From an uncultured Rhodospirillales bacterium (GTDB taxonomy: Bacteria; Pseudomonadota; Alphaproteobacteria; ATCC43930; CGMCC-115725), in NCBI GenBank assembly GCA_903822185.1, contig CAIJOA010000011.1, positions 682,001 through 746,000 on the forward strand: a stretch of DNA of 64,000 nucleotides, written 5' to 3'. The notes below the pieces were generated by a model, which saw only the letters and a list, made by a program, of their open reading frames with translations, made no database searches and was not told the origin of the DNA. Made by a program: the position numbers and the translations under genes. Shown piece after piece: positions 6,912 through 15,508 of this stretch (its first letter is position 1; every line of letters begins with the position of its first letter).

Positions 6912-8030
6912 CTATCCTTTGATCGCCTCATCCGCCGTCAGCAACGGCACCCCGAACACCTGCGCAACAGCCGGATGAGTAATGCGTCCACCCGCAACGT
7001 TGAGCCCCGCGCGCAGATGCGCGTCGTCGGCCAACGCCTTGCGCCAGCCCTTGTCCGCCAGCGCCAAAGCGAAGGGCAGCGTCGCGTTGTTGAGCGCGAA
7101 GGTCGAAGTCCGCGCCACCGCGCCCGGGATGTTGGTGACGCAGTAATGGATGACGCCTTCCTCGACATAGGTCGGGTTGGCATGGGTCGTCGGCCGGCTG
7201 GTTTCGAAGCAGCCGCCTTGGTCGATCGAGATATCGACTAGCACCGAGCCCGGCCGCATCGTCTTGACCATCGCCCGCGTCACCAGCTTGGGCGCGGCCG
7301 CGCCCGGCACCAGCGCCGCGCCGATGACCAGATCGGCGTTCAGTACCTCGCGCTCGATGTTCTCGACCGTCGCGAAGAGGGTATGAAGCTGCGAGGCGAA
7401 CTGCATATCGAGCTCGTAAAGCCGCGACAGCGACTTATCGATCACCGTGACATAAGCCTCCATGCCCATCGCCACGCGCGCCGCATTCGTGCCGGCGACA
7501 CCACCGCCGAGGATCACGACCTTGGCCGCCGCAACGCCCGGCACACCGCCCAGCAGGATGCCCGCGCCGCCCTGTTCCTTCTCGAGACAATGCGCCCCGA
7601 CCTGGATCGACATACGGCCCGCGACTTCGCTCATCGGCGCCAACAGCGGCAAGCCGCCCCGCTGATCGGTCACCGTCTCATAAGCGATGCAGACGGCACC
7701 CGACGTCATCAACCCTTCGGTCTGCGCCTTGTCGGCGGCCAGATGCAGATAGGTGAAAAGGACCTGCCCGGGCCGCAACAGCACGATCTCCGACGGCTGC
7801 GGCTCCTTCACCTTCACCACCATCTCGGCGGCGGCAAAGACATCGGCCGCCGTCGAGACAATGCGCGCACCGGCTTTCTCGTAAACCGCATCGTCGAAAC
7901 CGATGCCCAGCCCCGCGCCCTTCTCGACCACGACCTGATGACCATGATGGGTCAGTTCGCGGACGCTGCCGGGGATAAGGCCGACGCGGTATTCGTGAGT
8001 TTTGATCTCTTTCGGAACGCCGATTAGCAT
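6912..8030 (-). CDS. ald: Alanine dehydrogenase
   Basis: A 372-residue enzyme that interconverts L-alanine and pyruvate plus ammonia with NAD. The family N-terminus MLIGVPKEIKTHEYRVGL is present. Catalytic residues can be placed at Lys75 (VVKVKEP) and His96 (LFTYLHLA). The dinucleotide-binding fold is at VVILGGGVAGTNAARVAMGM (about 171-190). The start overlaps the end of the upstream aminotransferase gene by seven bases, so the two are translated together. It probably removes the alanine produced by that aminotransferase and returns pyruvate. Confidence 0.97.
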   Translation of the reverse strand: MLIGVPKEIKTHEYRVGLIPGSVRELTHHGHQVVVEKGAGLGIGFDDAVYEKAGARIVSTAADVFAAAEMVVKVKEPQPSEIVLLRPGQVLFTYLHLAADKAQTEGLMTSGAVCIAYETVTDQRGGLPLLAPMSEVAGRMSIQVGAHCLEKEQGGAGILLGGVPGVAAAKVVILGGGVAGTNAARVAMGMEAYVTVIDKSLSRLYELDMQFASQLHTLFATVENIEREVLNADLVIGAALVPGAAAPKLVTRAMVKTMRPGSVLVDISIDQGGCFETSRPTTHANPTYVEEGVIHYCVTNIPGAVARTSTFALNNATLPFALALADKGWRKALADDAHLRAGLNVAGGRITHPAVAQVFGVPLLTADEAIKG

Positions 8031-9340
8031 GACTTCAACACCTCACCCAGAAGACCGAACATCGCATCGATCTGTGACTTTTCGACGATCAAAGGTGGCG
8101 ACAGCGCAAGAATGTCGCCGGTCTGACGGATCAGCAGACCGCGCTCGAAACATTTGAGATAGACGTCGAACGCGCGCTGCGCCGGCTTTCCCGGCAGCGG
8201 CGCCAGCTCGATGCCGGCGACGAGACCGATCGTGCGAATGTCGATGACGTTCGGCAGTCCCTTAAGGCTATGCGCCGCATCGGCCCAATAATCGGACAGC
8301 CCCTTCGCACGATTGAACAGATCCTCGCGCGCATAGATATCGAGCGTCGCCAGCGCCGCCGCCGTCGCGACCGGATGGCCCGAATAGGTATAGCCATGTG
8401 CGAACTCGACCGCGATCTCGGGGCCTTGCATGAAGGCGTCGTAGATATGTTTGCGCGCTACGACTCCGCCCATCGGCACGACGCCATTGGTGACGCCCTT
8501 CGCAAAACAAATCATGTCGGGCTGGACGCCGAAGAGATCGGTTGCGAAGCCCGCGCCGAGGCGGCCGAAGCCGGTAATGACCTCGTCGAAGATGAGCAGG
8601 AAGCCGTGCTTGTCGCAGATCGCCCGCAGCCGTTCGAGGTAGCCCTTCGGCGGCACCAGTACGCCGGTCGAGCCAGCCATTGGTTCGACGATGACGGCCG
8701 CGATAGTCGAGGGATCGTGCAGCGCCGCGATCCGTTCCAGCTCGTCGGCCAGATGCGCGCCCCAGGCCGGCTGACCGCGCGAGAAGGCTTGTTCCGCCAG
8801 ATTGAACGTGTGCGGCAAGTGATCGACACCGGAGATGCCGGCATAGAGCTTCCGATTGCCGGCGATACCGCCGACCGAGATGCCCCCGAAACCGACACCG
8901 TGATAGCCGCGCTCGCGCCCGATCAGCCGCACCCGCGCCGCATCGCCCTTGGCCCGGTGATAGGCCAGCGCGATCTTAAGGGCGGTTTCGACCGCTTCGG
9001 AGCCCGAATTGCAAAAGAAGACATGATCGAGATCGCCCGGCATCAGGGCAGCCAAACGCGACGCCAGTTCGAATACCGCCGGGTGTCCCATCTGGAAGGC
9101 GGGCGCGTAATCGAGCGTCAGGATCTGTTTATGGACCGCCTCAGCGATCTCGGGACGGGCGTGGCCGGCATTGACGCACCACAACCCTGCCGTGCCGTCG
9201 AGGACCTTTCGACCATCCGTGGTGTAATAATACATGCCCTCGGCCGAGGCCATCAGGCGCGGATCGGCCTTGAACTGCCGATTTGCCGTGAAGGGCATCC
9301 AATAGGTTTCGAGATCGTTCGGCAGTGCTGCCTGATCCAT
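8024..9340 (-). CDS. Class III aminotransferase, omega-amino acid:pyruvate type
   Basis: A 438-residue PLP enzyme from ATG 9340, preceded by GAGG. Features of fold type I class III are visible: the phosphate-binding SGSEA at 112-116, the YHG of GRERGYHGVG near 146-148, Asp252 in LLIFDEVITGFGR, and the Schiff-base Lys281 in CFAKGVTNG. The N-terminus YWMPFTANRQFKADPR is typical of beta-alanine/omega-amino acid:pyruvate aminotransferases. An earlier in-frame start at 9460 would add 40 low-complexity residues and is rejected. It is paired with alanine dehydrogenase, which fits alanine as co-product. The donor amine is unknown. Confidence 0.92.
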   Translation of the reverse strand: MDQAALPNDLETYWMPFTANRQFKADPRLMASAEGMYYYTTDGRKVLDGTAGLWCVNAGHARPEIAEAVHKQILTLDYAPAFQMGHPAVFELASRLAALMPGDLDHVFFCNSGSEAVETALKIALAYHRAKGDAARVRLIGRERGYHGVGFGGISVGGIAGNRKLYAGISGVDHLPHTFNLAEQAFSRGQPAWGAHLADELERIAALHDPSTIAAVIVEPMAGSTGVLVPPKGYLERLRAICDKHGFLLIFDEVITGFGRLGAGFATDLFGVQPDMICFAKGVTNGVVPMGGVVARKHIYDAFMQGPEIAVEFAHGYTYSGHPVATAAALATLDIYAREDLFNRAKGLSDYWADAAHSLKGLPNVIDIRTIGLVAGIELAPLPGKPAQRAFDVYLKCFERGLLIRQTGDILALSPPLIVEKSQIDAMFGLLGEVLKSC

Positions 9341-9448
9341 CTGTGCCTCGCTGCGGCTCCTAGGGACGGCTGAACCTAGCAGGTTCGCGACCGGTTGGGC
9401 ACGCAGCTTCGGATTGCCGCGCGGGGCTGGTTCTGGCAAGATCGCAGG

Positions 9449-9859
9449 ATGAACGGGCAAACGTCGCTTTCCAGCCGTATCGTCGGATTCGCCAAAACCG
9501 GGCTCGGTGTGGGCGTCTGCGTCACGATCGGCCTCATCCTCGAATCGATGAATGTCAGCGCGCCGTATCTGGTCTTCCTGCCGGCCATCGCGGGCAGCTG
9601 CGCCATCGCCGGCTTCCGTGCCGGGCTGTGGGCGATCTTCCTCAGCACCATCGGGCTGTGGCTATTCTTCCTGCCGCCGGACGGCTTTGAACTCCCAAGC
9701 TATGCCGAACTGGGACATCTCGCCGTCTTCGTCATCGTGACGGTGTTCCTGTGCTGGATCATCGACGGACAGCGCCGCTCGAACGATGCGCTGTCGCGCG
9801 ACAATGTCATGCTGGGCTTCAAGATCTCCACCTTGATGAACCGCAACAAAGCGCACTGA
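9449..9859 (+). CDS. Small membrane protein with DUF4118/KdpD-like region
   Basis: A 136-residue protein from ATG 9449. About four hydrophobic segments occur between residues 12 and 105, with the order VGVCVTIGLILES, APYLVFLPAIAGSCAIAGF, GLWAIFLSTIGLWLFFLPP and HLAVFVIVTVFLCWII. This resembles the membrane unit DUF4118 found in KdpD-type histidine kinases, but it stops after a short charged tail with no kinase domain. It is transcribed away from the aminotransferase gene, so the 108-base gap should hold two promoters. The function is unknown. Confidence 0.75.
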   Translation: MNGQTSLSSRIVGFAKTGLGVGVCVTIGLILESMNVSAPYLVFLPAIAGSCAIAGFRAGLWAIFLSTIGLWLFFLPPDGFELPSYAELGHLAVFVIVTVFLCWIIDGQRRSNDALSRDNVMLGFKISTLMNRNKAH

Positions 9860-9912
9860 CAGACCGACCGGTCTGGCTGCGCCATCGCTTTCACACAGTA
9901 TCCCGCGCGTCG

Positions 9913-10362
9913 ATGCGCCTTCCCCTGAACCGCCGTCAATTGCTTCTTGCGCCCTTGTCGCTGGCGTTCGTGCGCGCCGCGTCGGCCAAGAGCTTCACGA
10001 TCGGTCCCATCACCATCGGCCATCCGTGGGCAGCGCCTTCCGTTACCGAGGCAGCGGCCTTGTTCATGGTGATGACCAACAATGGCGACCGCGCGGATCG
10101 GCTGGTCGCCGCGGCAACGCCGATCGCCGAGACGGTGATCTTTCGCACGCATGACGGCTCGCCGCTCGAATATTACGAATTGCAGCCGCGCCGACCGGTC
10201 AACCTGCGACCCGGACGGCGTTACATCGCACTGCGCGATTTGAAAGCGCCGCTCGCTCTCGACGATACGTTCGCGCTGACGCTGCGTTTCGCCGAAGCGG
10301 GTACGATCACGGTGTCCGTCGTCGTCGAGGCCGGTGCCGAAGAAGACACGCCGCCCGGCTAA
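9913..10362 (+). CDS. PCu(A)C-family copper-chaperone-like protein lacking the usual ligands
   Basis: A 149-residue exported protein from ATG 9913. The N-terminus LNRRQLLLAPLSLAFVRAAS has a twin-arginine pair before a hydrophobic core, so Tat export is possible, with cleavage after AASA. The body matches the PCu(A)C cupredoxin-like fold (family order IGHPWA, ALFMVMTNNGDRADRLV, PIAETV, LRDLKAPL). In ordinary members a His-x-Met pair follows the AETV region and a second Met-containing segment precedes the LK.PL turn; here these read IFRTHDG and GRRYIALRD, so the Cu(I) site looks lost. It overlaps no neighbour. Confidence 0.72.
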   Translation: MRLPLNRRQLLLAPLSLAFVRAASAKSFTIGPITIGHPWAAPSVTEAAALFMVMTNNGDRADRLVAAATPIAETVIFRTHDGSPLEYYELQPRRPVNLRPGRRYIALRDLKAPLALDDTFALTLRFAEAGTITVSVVVEAGAEEDTPPG

Positions 10363-10372
10363 GCGCCCTCTA

Positions 10373-11482
10373 CTAAGCGGAGGCGAGCTTCTCCGCCACA
10401 ATATCAGCCAGCGCCAATGACGAAGTGATGCCGGGCGATTCAATGCCGAAGAGATTGACCAATCCCGGCACGCCATGCGTTTCCGGCCCGGCGATCATGA
10501 AGTCAGCGCCCGGTTCTTTGGGACTGCTGATCTTTGGACGAATGCCGGCATAGCCGGGCATCAGCGCGTTATCGGGCAGCGCCGGCCAATAGGTCCGGAT
10601 CGCCGCATAGAACTTATCGCCGCGGCGCGGATCGACGGTGTAATCGATGCCGTCGATCCATTCCGTATCGGGGCCGAAGCGAGCCGCGCCGGCCATATCG
10701 AGCGTCAGATGAACGCCGAGACCGGCATGTTCCGGCACCGGATAGACCAGCCGCTTGAACGGCGCTTTGCCGGCCAACGTGAAATAGACGCCGCGGCAAT
10801 AATAATCCTGCGGGATCGTCGCTGCGGGAACACCGGCGATCGTCCGCGCAACCGATGGCGCATAGAGCCCGGCGCAATTGACCACGAGCTTCGCTTCGAG
10901 CGTCATCGCTTCGGCGCCACCGATATCGAGCGTGAAGCCTTGCGGCGTAACCTTGCCGCCCATCACCGGCGAACGCAGTACGACCGAAGCGCCTGCATTT
11001 TCGGCATCGGTCTGATAGGCCACCATCAGCGCGTGCGTATCGACGATACCGGTCGAGGGGGAATGAAACGCGCCGACGCAAGCCAAGTCCGGCTCCATCG
11101 CCTTCGCGGCTTGTTCGTCGAGCCATTCGAGATCGGTAACGCCCGCCGCCTCGGCATGTTTGATGACACGGCGCAGCAGCTCGATCTCGTCGTCATTGAC
11201 GGCGACGACCAGCTTTCCGACGCGCTTGTGCGGCACGTCGCGTTCGGCGCAATAAGCATAAAGCTTGTTGCGTCCTTCGACGCAGAGCTTCGCCTTCAGA
11301 CTGCCTTGCGGATAATAGAGACCGGCATGGATTACCTCGCTATTGCGCGAGGACGTATCCTGACCGATCCAGCGTTCTTTCTCGAGAAGAAGCACCTCGC
11401 GGCCGGCGCGGGCCAAAGCCCGCGCCACCGCCAGTCCGATGATACCGCCGCCGATGACGACGCATTCGACGGCGTCGCTCAT
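10373..11482 (-). CDS. FAD-dependent oxidoreductase, L-2-hydroxyglutarate oxidase (LhgO)-like
   Basis: A 369-residue DAO-family flavoprotein. The N-terminal dinucleotide fold [20 protein letters not shown] and VLLLEKE is followed by [20 protein letters not shown], a strong LhgO/L2HGDH signature, and a C-terminal FAD contact [17 protein letters not shown]. LhgO oxidises L-2-hydroxyglutarate to 2-oxoglutarate and passes electrons to the quinone pool. The gene starts one base inside the stop of the LVIVD-repeat gene, so the two are coupled. The exact substrate in this branch is not certain. Confidence 0.88.
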
Positions 11483-12612
11483 CAGGTCCGTTCCAAGATC
11501 TCCAGGCCGCGGATACGGTCGATCAGATAGATCAAACCGCGATCGTCCTGATAGACGTCGTTGCTCTGCGCGCGTTTCGCACCGGGGGCCGGATCAGGCA
11601 CATAATGCGCGACTTCCTTGGGGGTATGCGGCTTCGAGATATCGACGATGCGAAGCCCCTGCGCGAACCAGGCAAAGGGAATGTCGGTACCGCGGATCTG
11701 CTCGACTGGCTGGTGGCAACCCGTGTTGGTCGGATGATTGCCGCTTTCGAGGCCTTCGACCTGGAAAGTGCCGACCGGCACCGGCTTGGTCTCATCGGTG
11801 ATATCGACCATCCACATGAAGGCCGGCAGCGCATCCGCCGACCGCAGCACGTCCTCGTCGGAGACGATGGCGAACTGCCGGCCCTGGATGGCGAACGGCA
11901 CCTTGACGCAGGAGTGGGTCGGGCAGGCGAACGGCGGGGTCCAGTCGAGACCCGACACCCATTTCGGCTTCGACATATCGTCGATGTTGAGGATGTGAAA
12001 ACCGCCCTGCCAGTAGCTGGTATAAAGACGGTTGCCCTGGCGCAGCGGATGATGACAGCGATGCTCCGCACCTTGCCAGGTCGGCGTTTCGCCGCCGGCG
12101 ATATGCTGACCCGGCGTCCACCAGCGCCCCACCTCTTCCGGCTTTTCCGGATTCTTCAGGTCGAGGATCATGACGATATTGCCGAGATAGCCATCGACCG
12201 TCGGCGAGCAATAGACATAGCGGCCATCGAAGTCATAGCGATGAACGCCATGGCCACCCGTTACCCAGTCGGTGATCTTGCGCGGCTTCAGCGGGTTGCT
12301 GACGTCGTAAATGCCGAGCCCGCCCTTGAAGCCCGACGTGTCGGCCTTGTCGCCGCCGCCCGGAGCCGGATCGACTTCGTGGTTGGTGACGAGGATGCCG
12401 TTGACGGTACGCGCCTTGTGGGAATGGGTTCCCGGCGGCATTTCGAAATAAGCGACTTCCTTAGGATTCGCAGGATCGCGAACATCGACGATGCTGGTGC
12501 CCGACGGCGCATGGATATGGCCGATATAGGCAAACCCGTTATCGACATAGACCTGGCCGCCGCCATAACAATCATGGAAGCCGACCCGCTTAATGCCCTT
12601 CGCTGAAACCAT
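11482..12612 (-). CDS. LVIVD-repeat beta-propeller protein
   Basis: A 376-residue protein from ATG 12612, which has a strong ribosome site GGGAGGGA; an upstream in-frame start would add 36 unlikely residues. Repeats of the LVIVD type can be followed: [87 protein letters not shown] and [18 protein letters not shown]. Such propellers are usually exported, but no signal peptide is seen. Many His residues ([24 protein letters not shown]) could bind metal. The function is unknown; coupling to the LhgO-like enzyme suggests a shared pathway. Confidence 0.8.
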
Positions 12613-12745
12613 CTTTTTCTCCCTCCCGAATAGTCTGATCCTATCGGAAATTCCCGTTTCGCCAAGCCTTCCCGGGCCTAAATCGTCACGGGTGGGACGA
12701 AGCGCGCAATTGACTTTCATCGCTGCATGGTGAGGCTACCGGGCC

Positions 12746-14491
12746 ATGACCGATGCTTCGATGACCGCCGATTTAGAGTCCCGCCTTTGGAACGAAAGTG
12801 CCCCCGGGCCCGTGCGCCCTGGCAGCGACCGGCACAAGAGCATGTTCTGCCGGATGCTGCTCGACACCTTCAATCCCTATAAGCCCGCCATCATCGACTG
12901 GCCGAAGCTTGACGAGGAATCGCGCCAGCGCCTGATCAACCTGCCGATCTGGGACATTGCCGTCCAGACCGAGGGCAAGGCGAAGATGCGCGTCCTGACC
13001 TATGGCGAAGAAATCACCGACCCGCTGCTGCGTCAGGCGATCGACCTCAACGGCTTCGAGGAAGGCCGTCACAAGACCGTCCTCGCCAACATGGTCGAAG
13101 CCTATGGCATCAAGCTGCAGCCCGAGCCGGCCTATCTGAAGCCCAAGGATTCGGAATGGGCCTTCATGGTCACGGGCTATAGCGAGTGCATCGACAGCTT
13201 CTTCGCCTTCGGCTTGTTCGAGGTTGCCAAGCGGTCGGGATTCTTCCCGCCCGAACTGGTCGATACTTTCGAGCCGGTGATGCAGGAAGAAGGCCGGCAT
13301 ATCCTTTTCTACGTGAACTGGGTTGCCTGGCATCGCCGCAACATGCCGTGGTGGCGCCGCCCGTGGTTCGCGATGAAGATCGCCGCCGTCTGGGCGTTCC
13401 TGATCTGGGAGCGGATCGGCATCGCCCGCGGCTTGGGTGACGGCGCCGACAACAACAATTTCACCATGACAGGCGCCAAAGAGGTCGGGGTCGATATCAA
13501 CCCCGCCGAATTGATGGACATCTGTCTCGAAGAGAACGACAAGCGTCTGGGCGGCTATGATAAGCGCCTGCTGCGGCCTAATCTGGTGCCGCGCGCGATT
13601 CGTTTTGCAAGGTTCTTTATGGGCAAGAAAAAACCAGCCGTCGAAATCGGCTCCGAAGCGCACAAGGAAATCTTCTGCAAGCATTTCCACGACACCTATC
13701 AGGATTACGATCCCCATACGCTGCCCTGGCCCGAGCTGGACGAAGCGGCGGCGCAGCGGCTGCGGTCGGTTCCGTTCTGGCAGGAAGTGCTGCACACCGA
13801 ACGCCGTGCGGGGCTGATCGTCCAGAAATTCACCGAGACGATCCAAGACCCGACGCTGAAAGCTGCCGTCGCGCTGCAGGGTTTTGAAGAAGCGCGTCAC
13901 GCGGAGCTGATCCGGGTGATGATCCAACGCTACAATATCGACGCGTACGAGACGGCGCTCGACCCCTTGCCGGCCGATATCGAAACCGCCTTCAAGGATT
14001 TCGGTTACGGCGAATGTGTCGATTCATTCCTTGGCTTCGGCGTCTTCAAGATCGCCCGGCAGTCCGGCTTCCTGCCGGAATCGATGTTCGAGATTTTCGA
14101 TCGGCTGATGTACGAGGAGACGCGCCACATCGTCTTCTTCATCAACTGGATGGCCTATCGCCAGAAGCAGAAGAATCGCGGCCAGATCTGGTGGCGCGCC
14201 AGTGCATCGATGCGATTCTATTTCCGCGCCCTCAAACGCCTTGTCGGTACCGCCAAGCGTGGCGCCGATCTCAACGACGGCAAGGAGTTCTCGGCGACCC
14301 AGGCCAGCGTCTTCCTCGACGGCTTCACCTTCAAACGTTTTCTCGAAGACTGCTACAACGAGAATGCGCGCCGGATGAAGGAGTTCGATCCCGAGTTGCT
14401 GCGCCCGAGCTTCCTGCCCTCGCTCGCCGAAACCGCGCTGGCTAGCCTGCGGCTGTGGAACTTCCGCCGCCGTCCGAAGGATGCCGCTTAA
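12746..14491 (+). CDS. Tandem-duplicated ferritin-like di-iron protein
   Basis: A 581-residue protein made of two homologous units of 276 residues. Each has the carboxylate/His pattern of a ferritin-like four-helix di-iron site: Glu76, Glu105-Glu106-x-x-His109, Glu147 and Glu181-Glu182-x-x-His185 in unit one; Glu352, Glu381-Glu382-x-x-His385, Glu423 and Glu457-Glu458-x-x-His461 in unit two. Every ligand pair is exactly 276 residues apart, as are HK at 30/306 and LLRP at 275/551. A Trp-rich hydrophobic stretch (NMPWWRRPWFAMKIAAVWAF, 199-218) follows the first unit and may touch the membrane. No signal peptide is seen. It is probably an oxidase, oxygenase or metal-handling protein; the reaction is unknown. 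Confidence 0.8.
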   Translation: MTDASMTADLESRLWNESAPGPVRPGSDRHKSMFCRMLLDTFNPYKPAIIDWPKLDEESRQRLINLPIWDIAVQTEGKAKMRVLTYGEEITDPLLRQAIDLNGFEEGRHKTVLANMVEAYGIKLQPEPAYLKPKDSEWAFMVTGYSECIDSFFAFGLFEVAKRSGFFPPELVDTFEPVMQEEGRHILFYVNWVAWHRRNMPWWRRPWFAMKIAAVWAFLIWERIGIARGLGDGADNNNFTMTGAKEVGVDINPAELMDICLEENDKRLGGYDKRLLRPNLVPRAIRFARFFMGKKKPAVEIGSEAHKEIFCKHFHDTYQDYDPHTLPWPELDEAAAQRLRSVPFWQEVLHTERRAGLIVQKFTETIQDPTLKAAVALQGFEEARHAELIRVMIQRYNIDAYETALDPLPADIETAFKDFGYGECVDSFLGFGVFKIARQSGFLPESMFEIFDRLMYEETRHIVFFINWMAYRQKQKNRGQIWWRASASMRFYFRALKRLVGTAKRGADLNDGKEFSATQASVFLDGFTFKRFLEDCYNENARRMKEFDPELLRPSFLPSLAETALASLRLWNFRRRPKDAA

Positions 14492-14530: not shown

Positions 14531-15508
14531 ATGAAAATCGCCACGATCCTCGCGGCCATCGCGGGGCTGCTGCTCGGCACCGCGATCGTCGCCTATTACG
14601 GCTTCGGCGCGGTGATCGACGCGCTCAGCACGATCGGCTGGATCGGGTTCGGCGTTCTCATCGTCTATAAATTCTTCCTCTATCTGCTGCTGGGGTTGAG
14701 CTGGTGGGTGATCGCGCCCGCACCACGCCAGTCGCCGCTGAGTTACATCTGGGGCCGGATCATTCGTGATTCGAGTTCGGAAATCCTGCCGTTCTCGCAA
14801 ATCGGCGGCTTCATCATGGGCGCGCGGGCAGCAACGCTGCTGAACGGCCCATCGAGCACGATGGCCTTTGCGACGACCGTGGTCGATGTCACGGTCGAGG
14901 TCATCGCGCAGCTCGGCTACACCATGATCGGCCTTGTGTTGCTCATGAAGTTTCGGCCTGATGCCGATCTCGTCTATCCGGTCGCGATGGGCATCGCCAT
15001 CGGCCTCGTCGTCATCCTCGGATTCATCCTGTTGCAGCGCCGCGGCGCGGCGGGGATGGAGAAATTTAGCAAGCGATTGGCCGCAAGCTGGCTGCCGGGC
15101 GCGGCTGCGAAAGCCAAGCCGCTGCAGGAAGCGCTCGATGCCATCTATGCGCAACGAAGCGGTCTTGCCGGCGGCCTTGGCCTGCATTTCGTCGCCTGGA
15201 TCGCGAGCGCGATCGAAGCCTGGATCGCGTTGCGCTTCATGGGCGTCGAAATCAGCATCGCCGCCGTCCTGACGATCGAAAGTCTGCTCTACGCCATCCG
15301 CAGTGTCGCCTTCGCCGTGCCGAACGCGGTCGGCGTGCAGGAAGGCGCTTATGTCATGCTGGGCGGGCTGTTCGGGCTGCCGCCGGAAATGGCCCTCGCT
15401 TTATCGCTGCTGAAGCGTGGCCGCGATCTCGTCATCGGCATCCCGGCGTTGATCGCATGGCAGGCCCTTGAGGGCGGCAAGCTGTTTCGCCGGCGCAAGC
15501 CGGACTAA
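14531..15508 (+). CDS. HpnL-like/UPF0104 integral membrane protein
   Basis: A 325-residue polytopic membrane protein of the lysylphosphatidylglycerol synthase transmembrane superfamily. Typical segments are SWWVIAPAPRQSPLSYIWGR, EILPFSQIGGFIMGARA, AIRSVAFAVPNAVGVQEGAY and LSLLKRGRDLVIGIPALI. These match the group called HpnL near hopanoid genes, although no other hopanoid gene lies here. No aminoacyl-transferase domain is attached. The likely role is lipid flipping or transport, inferred only from the family. It runs ten bases ahead of the next transporter gene. Confidence 0.82.
   Translation: MKIATILAAIAGLLLGTAIVAYYGFGAVIDALSTIGWIGFGVLIVYKFFLYLLLGLSWWVIAPAPRQSPLSYIWGRIIRDSSSEILPFSQIGGFIMGARAATLLNGPSSTMAFATTVVDVTVEVIAQLGYTMIGLVLLMKFRPDADLVYPVAMGIAIGLVVILGFILLQRRGAAGMEKFSKRLAASWLPGAAAKAKPLQEALDAIYAQRSGLAGGLGLHFVAWIASAIEAWIALRFMGVEISIAAVLTIESLLYAIRSVAFAVPNAVGVQEGAYVMLGGLFGLPPEMALALSLLKRGRDLVIGIPALIAWQALEGGKLFRRRKPD

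Follow-up and report, generated by a model that had tools for sequence, protein, structure and literature searches.

The window analysed here is a stretch of 64,000 nucleotides from an uncultured Rhodospirillales bacterium (assembly GCA_903822185.1, contig CAIJOA010000011.1, positions 682,001 to 746,000). At 12746..14491 on its plus strand lies an open reading frame (ORF) with an ATG start, encoding a protein of 581 amino acids made of two related di-iron domains, named here N-type and C-type. This layout is indicated by the self-homology of the protein and by orthologues that are either fused or split. The N-type domain (residues 1-289, 12746..13612, plus strand) is predicted from an AlphaFold2 model and its fold matches to be an R2-like helical bundle. 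It is followed by a lysine-rich linker of about residues 290-299 (13613..13642, plus strand), placed by an alignment of fused relatives and corresponding to the point where, in split relatives, the N-type frame stops and the C-type gene starts. The C-type domain (residues 300-581, 13643..14488, plus strand) was delimited from the fused-chain model and from its identity of 52-84% to C-type genes or domains elsewhere. The gene is a fusion of two ancient paralogues of a new, hopanoid-associated di-iron family.

A preliminary description of the gene, made from the DNA letters alone, had proposed two homologous ferritin-like di-iron units within one chain, held in a register of exactly 276 residues. 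Self-homology, predicted fold and ligand sets all agree with two such units. Aligned to each other, the halves are homologous along 305 residues, well beyond the motifs listed in that description: at an offset of 276 and without gaps, 95/305 residues are identical and the BLOSUM62 score is +420, versus -21 for the next-best offset and a mean of -328 (standard deviation 166) for the offsets tried. With gaps allowed, the local score of the two halves is 460, versus 33 +/- 5 with a maximum of 54 in 300 shuffles. The identity between them is about 36%, and this alignment contains two compensating 4-residue gaps near residues 197-209. Residues specific to each type include (N rows versus C rows) A72/V, K110/A, F167/L and G243/Q. 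The metal-site and flanking residues listed earlier are all present where they had been placed, 276 apart. These matches are not independent, however, and one implies most of the others, since the ligand spacings are nearly rigid family-wide (E76 to E106, 30 residues, and E147 to E182, 35 residues, each in 128/128 family rows; E106 to E147, 41 residues, in 123/128).

In di-iron proteins the ligand pairs follow an ExxH rule. Both ligand motifs in each half read E-E-x-R-H, and E76, E105, E106, R108, H109, E147, E181, E182, R184, H185 and N191 are each conserved in 128/128 family rows. Because of the ExxH rule we placed the ligands one residue on from the earlier reading, so that the pairs are probably E106/H109 and E182/H185 in the first half and E382/H385 and E458/H461 in the second, E105, E181, E381 and E457 probably being neighbouring, equally invariant glutamates and not ligands. 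Of the six ligands first proposed per half, E76, H109, E147, H185 and their counterparts are thus kept, and these four glutamates are replaced. Each half retains a complete set of candidate ligands, as had been claimed. The first predicted metal site spans 12971..13300 on the plus strand, with codons for E76 (12971-12973), E106 (13061-13063), H109 (13070-13072), E147 (13184-13186), E182 (13289-13291) and H185 (13298-13300). The second spans 13799..14128 on the same strand, with codons for E352 (13799-13801), E382 (13889-13891), H385 (13898-13900), E423 (14012-14014), E458 (14117-14119) and H461 (14126-14128). The candidate ligands of both are invariant in 128/128 family rows and would bind the metal.

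Scans of the Pfam and NCBIfam libraries gave no family that fits the 581-residue protein or its first half. AurF (PF11583) scored 17.2 bits with the whole protein and 14.0 with the first half, below its gathering threshold of 29.6, and Mg-protoporphyrin monomethyl ester cyclase (NF010172) scored 18.9 bits for a cut-off of 391. A sequence search of the PDB with the window protein returned no useful match, and the best match of the family profile, the MiaE-like 5ux1, was weak (E 0.019). Modelled by AlphaFold2 from a 51-row family alignment, residues 1-290 form a helical bundle with a mean pLDDT (predicted local distance difference test) of 91.5 and a pTM (predicted template modelling score) of 0.90. 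The model of the fused chain, from 8 rows, is moderate (mean pLDDT 74, pTM 0.54), and its domain arrangement was not interpreted. Full-length alignments mixing fused and single-domain rows were unsound, with single rows set on the wrong half or split, and were therefore left out of the modelling.

With Foldseek, the best PDB matches of the first-half model were ribonucleotide reductase (RNR) R2 and R2-like ligand-binding oxidases (R2lox), with weak E values (best 1.1e-3). VIA-align gave Z 14.4 for R2lox 6qrz (3.7 Å over 210 residues, 15% identity), 14.1 for the azoxy synthase VlmB 8wvr and 13.3 for the methane monooxygenase hydroxylase 1fyz. Helical models that lack clear relatives can attain a Z near 14, and it is therefore on the ligand pattern that the di-iron argument rests. 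The predicted fold is R2lox/RNR-R2/VlmB-like; together, the bundle model, the fold matches and the ligands conserved in 128/128 rows place the family in the di-iron carboxylate (ferritin-like/R2-like) superfamily. A reading of helix 202-228 as a membrane anchor was dropped because its hydrophobicity is modest; the median best 19-residue hydrophobicity mean is 1.15 in N-type and 0.44 in C-type.

The known proteins closest in these comparisons differ from the new family in several ways. R2lox and RNR R2 share with it the predicted fold and the ligand order E / ExxH / E / ExxH, but the fold matches are only 7-16% identical, the window protein has no Pfam match, and the family has a hopanoid gene context and two paralogues that are sometimes fused. 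R2lox binds a fatty acid and bears a Tyr-Val cross-link and a Mn/Fe site. The AurF/VlmB N-oxygenases, which act on amines, resemble the family in fold and through the sub-threshold Pfam match mentioned above. MiaE, a di-iron hydroxylase of tRNA, hydroxylates a prenyl side chain; its similarity to the window family is not significant, and substrate and context differ. The hopanoid tailoring enzymes HpnG, H, I, J, K, O, P and R share the pathway and, in some genomes, the gene cluster, but to our knowledge none of them is a di-iron protein. None is assigned to bacteriohopanepentol (pentol) or bacteriohopanehexol (hexol) in a 2025 survey of alphaproteobacterial hopanoids by Sinninghe Damsté and co-workers (PMC12583986).

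Hopanoids are bacterial lipids that resemble sterols, and many of them bear extra hydroxyl groups. A hopanoid gene lies 39 bases downstream of the di-iron gene. This gene, hpnL (14531..15508, plus strand), encodes a hopanoid-associated, flippase-like membrane protein (NCBIfam TIGR03476, 291.8 bits versus a cut-off of 195.65), and in 23/28 carrier genomes of the window's taxonomic family, coded f1, an HpnL was found no more than 8 kb from the di-iron gene. Squalene-hopene cyclase (SHC), HpnC, D and E, and HpnH are on another contig of the window's own genome. Locus L092, from genome G179, reads HpnI, HpnJ, HpnK, N-type, C-type, HpnL, HpnA, HpnB, HpnC, HpnD, HpnE, SHC, HpnG, with HpnH behind the cluster on the opposite strand; these genes were named by NCBIfam scans, except SHC (TIGR01507 search) and HpnC (tblastn with an NCBIfam-named protein). 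Locus L093 has the same order. The N-type gene stands alone between HpnK and HpnL in L094 and in clusters L185, L186 and L188 of family f14, and beside HpnK in the fourth fully fetched f14 cluster, L187, where HpnL was not found in the stretch. Family f14 is probably Sphingomonadaceae, a name taken from a single partial match between G527 DNA and a Sphingomonas plasmid (86% across 14% of the query).

A protein search gave 13 loci in named records, and in 11/13 C-type was beside HpnN, which was named by NCBIfam in one and by tblastn in the rest. Of the other two, L014 has N-type near HpnC, HpnB and HpnJ, and the Pandoraea locus L012 has no hpn gene found. In Cupriavidus metallidurans CH34 the N-type gene lies beside HpnB, HpnA, HpnH and HpnN. 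Counted by genome in the stretches fetched, an hpn gene was present within 8 kb in 23/28 f1 carriers, 5/5 f14 carriers, 3/15 Acetobacteraceae carriers and 5/18 carriers of a class-wide sample. The positional link to hopanoid genes varies with the lineage, from strong to absent.

Hopanoid genes were also met in other surroundings during this comparison. At a Reyranella locus (L009, 394-3253), two hpnM-like genes flank an ORF of 514 amino acids of unknown function. The Roseomonas marmotae plasmid p1318-3 (L198, 10711-27472) carries an hpn cluster followed by the phosphonate genes aepX, aepY and an aminotransferase gene, and by genes for a member of the phosphocholine cytidylyltransferase family and for a membrane protein resembling HpnL; the di-iron gene was not found there, and the arrangement may represent a route to lipids with a phosphonate head group, adjacent to hopanoid genes. 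The conjugative plasmid pCMU01 of Methylorubrum extorquens CM4 (L199, 15914-17851) bears a lone SHC gene near efflux genes.

For the class-wide sample, 289 genomes were drawn evenly, and SHC matches were accepted at E up to 1e-60. The family occurs in 18/289 of these genomes and SHC in 76/289, SHC being present in 17/18 carriers versus 59/271 non-carriers (Fisher p 4.6e-10); the sole carrier without SHC, G166, is a genome 74% complete. Among the 199 genomes of f14, 5 carry the family and 19 SHC, which is found in 5/5 carriers versus 14/194 others (p 4.7e-6), both tests treating genomes as independent although they are related. A further family, f28, carries the gene in 107/200 genomes and was named Acetobacteraceae because small contigs of G197 and G294 are 100% identical to plasmids of Commensalibacter melissae and Formicincola oecophyllae. 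Around the window's own genome, matches were obtained in 31/61 genomes before that of G043 (E 1.1e-4, 26% identity) was dropped as unsafe, and 28/37 f1 genomes carry the family. In a phylum-level sample it was found in 9/299 genomes, three of them outside the class. A tblastn search of plasmid records gave 13 matches, all in Burkholderia, Cupriavidus, Caballeronia or Paraburkholderia, with SHC on the same replicon in 11/13. The order of G263, taken as a control, has the family in 0/4 and SHC in 3/4 genomes, too few for a Hyphomicrobiales-wide control. Co-occurrence with SHC and the place in hpn clusters assign the family to hopanoid metabolism.

The two types are not distributed alike. All f14 carriers have N-type only (5/5). 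The 15 Acetobacteraceae carriers fetched, which were chosen from the 107 and not at random, have N and C adjacent in nine cases, on separate contigs in one (G829) and N only in five. Both types are present in the Reyranella loci L009 and L010 and in another Rhodospirillales locus, L007. Where whole genomes were searched and their genes typed, the one case of C-type lacking N-type was G013, a fragment at a contig end.

This distribution can be compared with phenotypes. The survey covers 54 alphaproteobacterial strains and describes the genes for pentol and hexol as unknown, with no candidates near hpn clusters (PMC12583986). It reports pentol in Rhodospirillales and Sphingomonadales, and hexol in Rhodospirillales only, Asaia and Nitrospirillum being among the hexol makers (PMC12583986). 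Enhydrobacter, placed with Reyranella, has 77% pentol plus hexol and 1% unsaturation (PMC12583986). Pentol plus hexol amounts to 0% in Azospirillum brasilense Sp7, which gave few bacteriohopanepolyols (BHPs) at all, in Rhodopseudomonas parapalustris and in 3/3 Methylobacterium species (PMC12583986, Table 3). Rhodopseudomonas palustris, related to R. parapalustris, makes bacteriohopanetetrol. The search covered the SHC region of A. brasilense Sp7 and the Methylobacterium bullatum hpn cluster, but not the main chromosomes, and found the family gene in neither; no Azospirillum plasmid record matches the family by tblastn. Burkholderia cenocepacia carries N-type, and strains of this species different from that of the searched record produce pentol cyclitol ether (PMC8560942). 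The gene distribution fits these phenotypes, with N only in the five f14 carriers, and N plus C in ten of the 15 Acetobacteraceae carriers and in L007, L009 and L010. A pathway from pentol to hexol would require a dependent order with N-type before C-type.

We consider it highly probable that the family is a hopanoid-tailoring di-iron oxidase of some kind. More specifically, and with moderate confidence, we infer that N-type and C-type are candidate O2-dependent di-iron hydroxylases of the bacteriohopanetetrol (BHT) side chain. The gene would encode two carboxylate oxygenase domains for hopanoid tailoring, both di-iron (or Mn/Fe) and O2-activating, and each would hydroxylate one CH2 of this side chain: N-type would convert BHT to pentol by adding the first extra hydroxyl next to the tetrol, at C-31, and C-type would add the second, at C-30, to give hexol. 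Fusion would keep two consecutive enzymes together, so that the intermediate could pass from site to site, and the neighbouring HpnL would probably handle or move the product. The presence of iron, the oxygenase activity, the substrate, the electron donor, and where and in which order hydroxylation takes place are all inferred. Among the titles and abstracts that searches of open-licence PubMed Central papers brought up, none tied a di-iron or ferritin-like protein to hopanoid tailoring. BHPs are widely used bacterial biomarkers in sediments, of which pentols and hexols can be a substantial share. The family yields the simple prediction that N alone gives pentol and N plus C hexol, and it may provide a gene marker for pentol and hexol producers in metagenomes.

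Several observations weigh against hydroxylation of the BHT side chain as the function, besides the relatedness of the genomes in the Fisher tests. The genotype was checked for 1/54 phenotyped strains (A. brasilense Sp7, in part). The family is lacking in 59/76 SHC-bearing genomes of the class-wide sample, being present in 17/76. No hpn gene lies within 8 kb in 13/18 class-wide and 12/15 Acetobacteraceae carriers in the stretch fetched, nor within 12 kb of the N-type gene of B. cenocepacia. In 3/5 Reyranella loci only C-type is present in the stretch fetched, the rest of these genomes not having been searched. The gene occurs in 5/19 SHC-bearing f14 genomes versus pentol in 6/8 BHP-producing Sphingomonadales cultures (PMC12583986, Table 3), and because of this difference a second pentol route may exist, although sampling differs between the two counts. 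A paper on cells grown anaerobically describes pentol cyclitol ether from Rhodopila sp. LVNP, leaving the growth condition of this sample unstated (PMC8590665); pentol formed without oxygen, if this is the case there, would be a misfit with an O2-dependent enzyme. Enterovirga, of the Hyphomicrobiales, has 1% pentol plus hexol (PMC12583986, Table 3). The idea favoured by the survey is an oxidation to a 32-oxo compound followed by hydration (PMC12583986); a di-iron enzyme inserting oxygen from O2 into CH2 would be simpler, but this is unproved. Part of the family's distribution is also that of unsaturated hopanoids, to which no genes have been assigned either.

This last point leads to the main rival explanation, in which the two domains are the missing hopanoid Delta6 and Delta11 desaturases, two paralogues for two double bonds. 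R2-like di-iron proteins include desaturases, and stearoyl-ACP desaturase 1oq4 is at rank 47 of the Foldseek list. The Delta6 and Delta11 genes are among those the survey leaves unassigned (PMC12583986), and Acetobacteraceae and Burkholderia, carriers among them, make unsaturated hopanoids (PMC12583986, PMC8560942). However, six pentol-making Sphingomonadales and the Reyranella-like Enhydrobacter combine 15-90% pentol/hexol with 0-1% unsaturation (PMC12583986), and probable Sphingomonadaceae and Reyranella genomes have the gene within hpn clusters. Conversely, Afipia broomeae, from an order without pentol, has 43% unsaturated hopanoids (PMC12583986). We regard desaturation as unlikely.

The pair might also tailor the cyclitol or glucosamine head group, or act at another hopanoid step with HpnK or HpnL, and not on C-30 and C-31 of the side chain. 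The place between hpnK and hpnL in several clusters and the frequent proximity of HpnL in f1 would suit such a role, but M. bullatum has hpnI, J, K and L without a family gene, and C-type also occurs beside hpnN, away from hpnI-J-K. In addition, BHT cyclitol ether, without further tailoring, is the sole BHP in Novosphingobium rosa and Rhizomicrobium, whose genotypes were not compared (PMC12583986). On balance such a role seems improbable to us. Alternatively, a single domain could do the catalysis and carry out one reaction, the other having a structural or regulatory role as known from heterodimeric di-iron oxidases. The strong divergence of the halves and their type-specific residues point this way, and repeated fusion would fit a stable heterodimer. 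Candidate ligands invariant in both types (128/128) and the occurrence of N-type alone in many genomes argue against it, which makes a single catalytic domain quite improbable.

Two consecutive hydroxylations by two paralogues can be set beside the history of the halves, which was followed in maximum-likelihood trees of 89 and then 128 rows. The N half is up to 72% and the C half up to 68% identical to complete stand-alone genes elsewhere. Stand-alone N genes of f1 are mostly 60-72% identical to the first half, with a few divergent or second N copies at 48-52% and one partial row at 74%; stand-alone C genes are 52-66% identical to the second half (70% in a row truncated at a contig end). In both trees a single branch with an SH-aLRT (Shimodaira-Hasegawa-like approximate likelihood-ratio test) support of 100 separates the C-type rows, without exception, from the N-type rows, and each kind of fused half is nested on its own side. 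Because the halves are closer to stand-alone genes than to each other, and because of this split, an ancient duplication into N-type and C-type genes must have come first and fusion later. The preliminary description had instead proposed one in-gene tandem duplication without net insertion or deletion since; this is practically untenable, the exact 276 register on which it rests being that of one protein, the trees placing each half with stand-alone genes, and the offset being 275, 276, 276, 277, 276, 275 and 275 in seven fused relatives. In two other fused frames, G803 and G845, the offset is 289/290 and 317. To judge by this variation among the window's kin and the other fusions, the exact value of 276 is incidental.

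Both halves are in one frame in the window genome and seven other f1 carriers, one of which (G026) is cut by a contig end; the remaining f1 carriers have two adjacent genes, N then C, or N only. A single clade (support 94 with 89 rows, 91 with 128) unites the eight C halves of the window's kind. Among the fused N halves falls the unfused G014, joined by G021 in the 128-row tree, and strongly supported branches around the f1 N halves in that tree force two changes of the fused label, so that loss or a second fusion event within f1 is possible. In Acetobacteraceae, G803 has a fused frame of 636 amino acids, and in G845 N and C share a frame without a stop, joined by a long basic linker. Because the C halves of these two nest among unfused Acetobacteraceae genes, where strongly supported branches again force two changes, fusion would most simply have occurred at least three times. 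As a tentative synthesis, we propose that one polypeptide with two di-iron sites hydroxylates C-31 and then C-30 to give hexol, that the two consecutive enzymes were joined independently at least three times, and that between them they make up the pentol/hexol pathway still to be assigned in Alpha- and Betaproteobacteria. The recurrent joining of one pair of di-iron paralogues would also serve as a model of how successive oxygenase steps become coupled. The interest of the fusion comes second to the family's chief value, that of a testable candidate for a stated gap in hopanoid biosynthesis.

Two variants of gene content were seen among relatives. In G024 and G035 a second N-type gene lies upstream of the N-C pair (L052, 7482-10910; L053, 2149-5523), a further expansion in copy number of N-type. 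The N-type gene of G014 (L059, 4157-5083) has a TGA where it matches the linker region, and behind it C-type was not found; because of this TGA and its position beside fused N rows, it may be a broken fused gene.

Upstream of the di-iron gene in the window, a run of genes on the minus strand (6912-11482) encodes an alanine dehydrogenase, the omega-aminotransferase AptA (740.9 bits) and an FAD oxidoreductase resembling L-2-hydroxyglutarate oxidase, and is apparently unrelated to it. Between this run and the di-iron gene, and divergent from the latter, lies a gene for an LVIVD-repeat protein (11482-12720, minus strand); among the loci compared, this neighbour accompanies the di-iron gene only in G001, a genome of the same genus.

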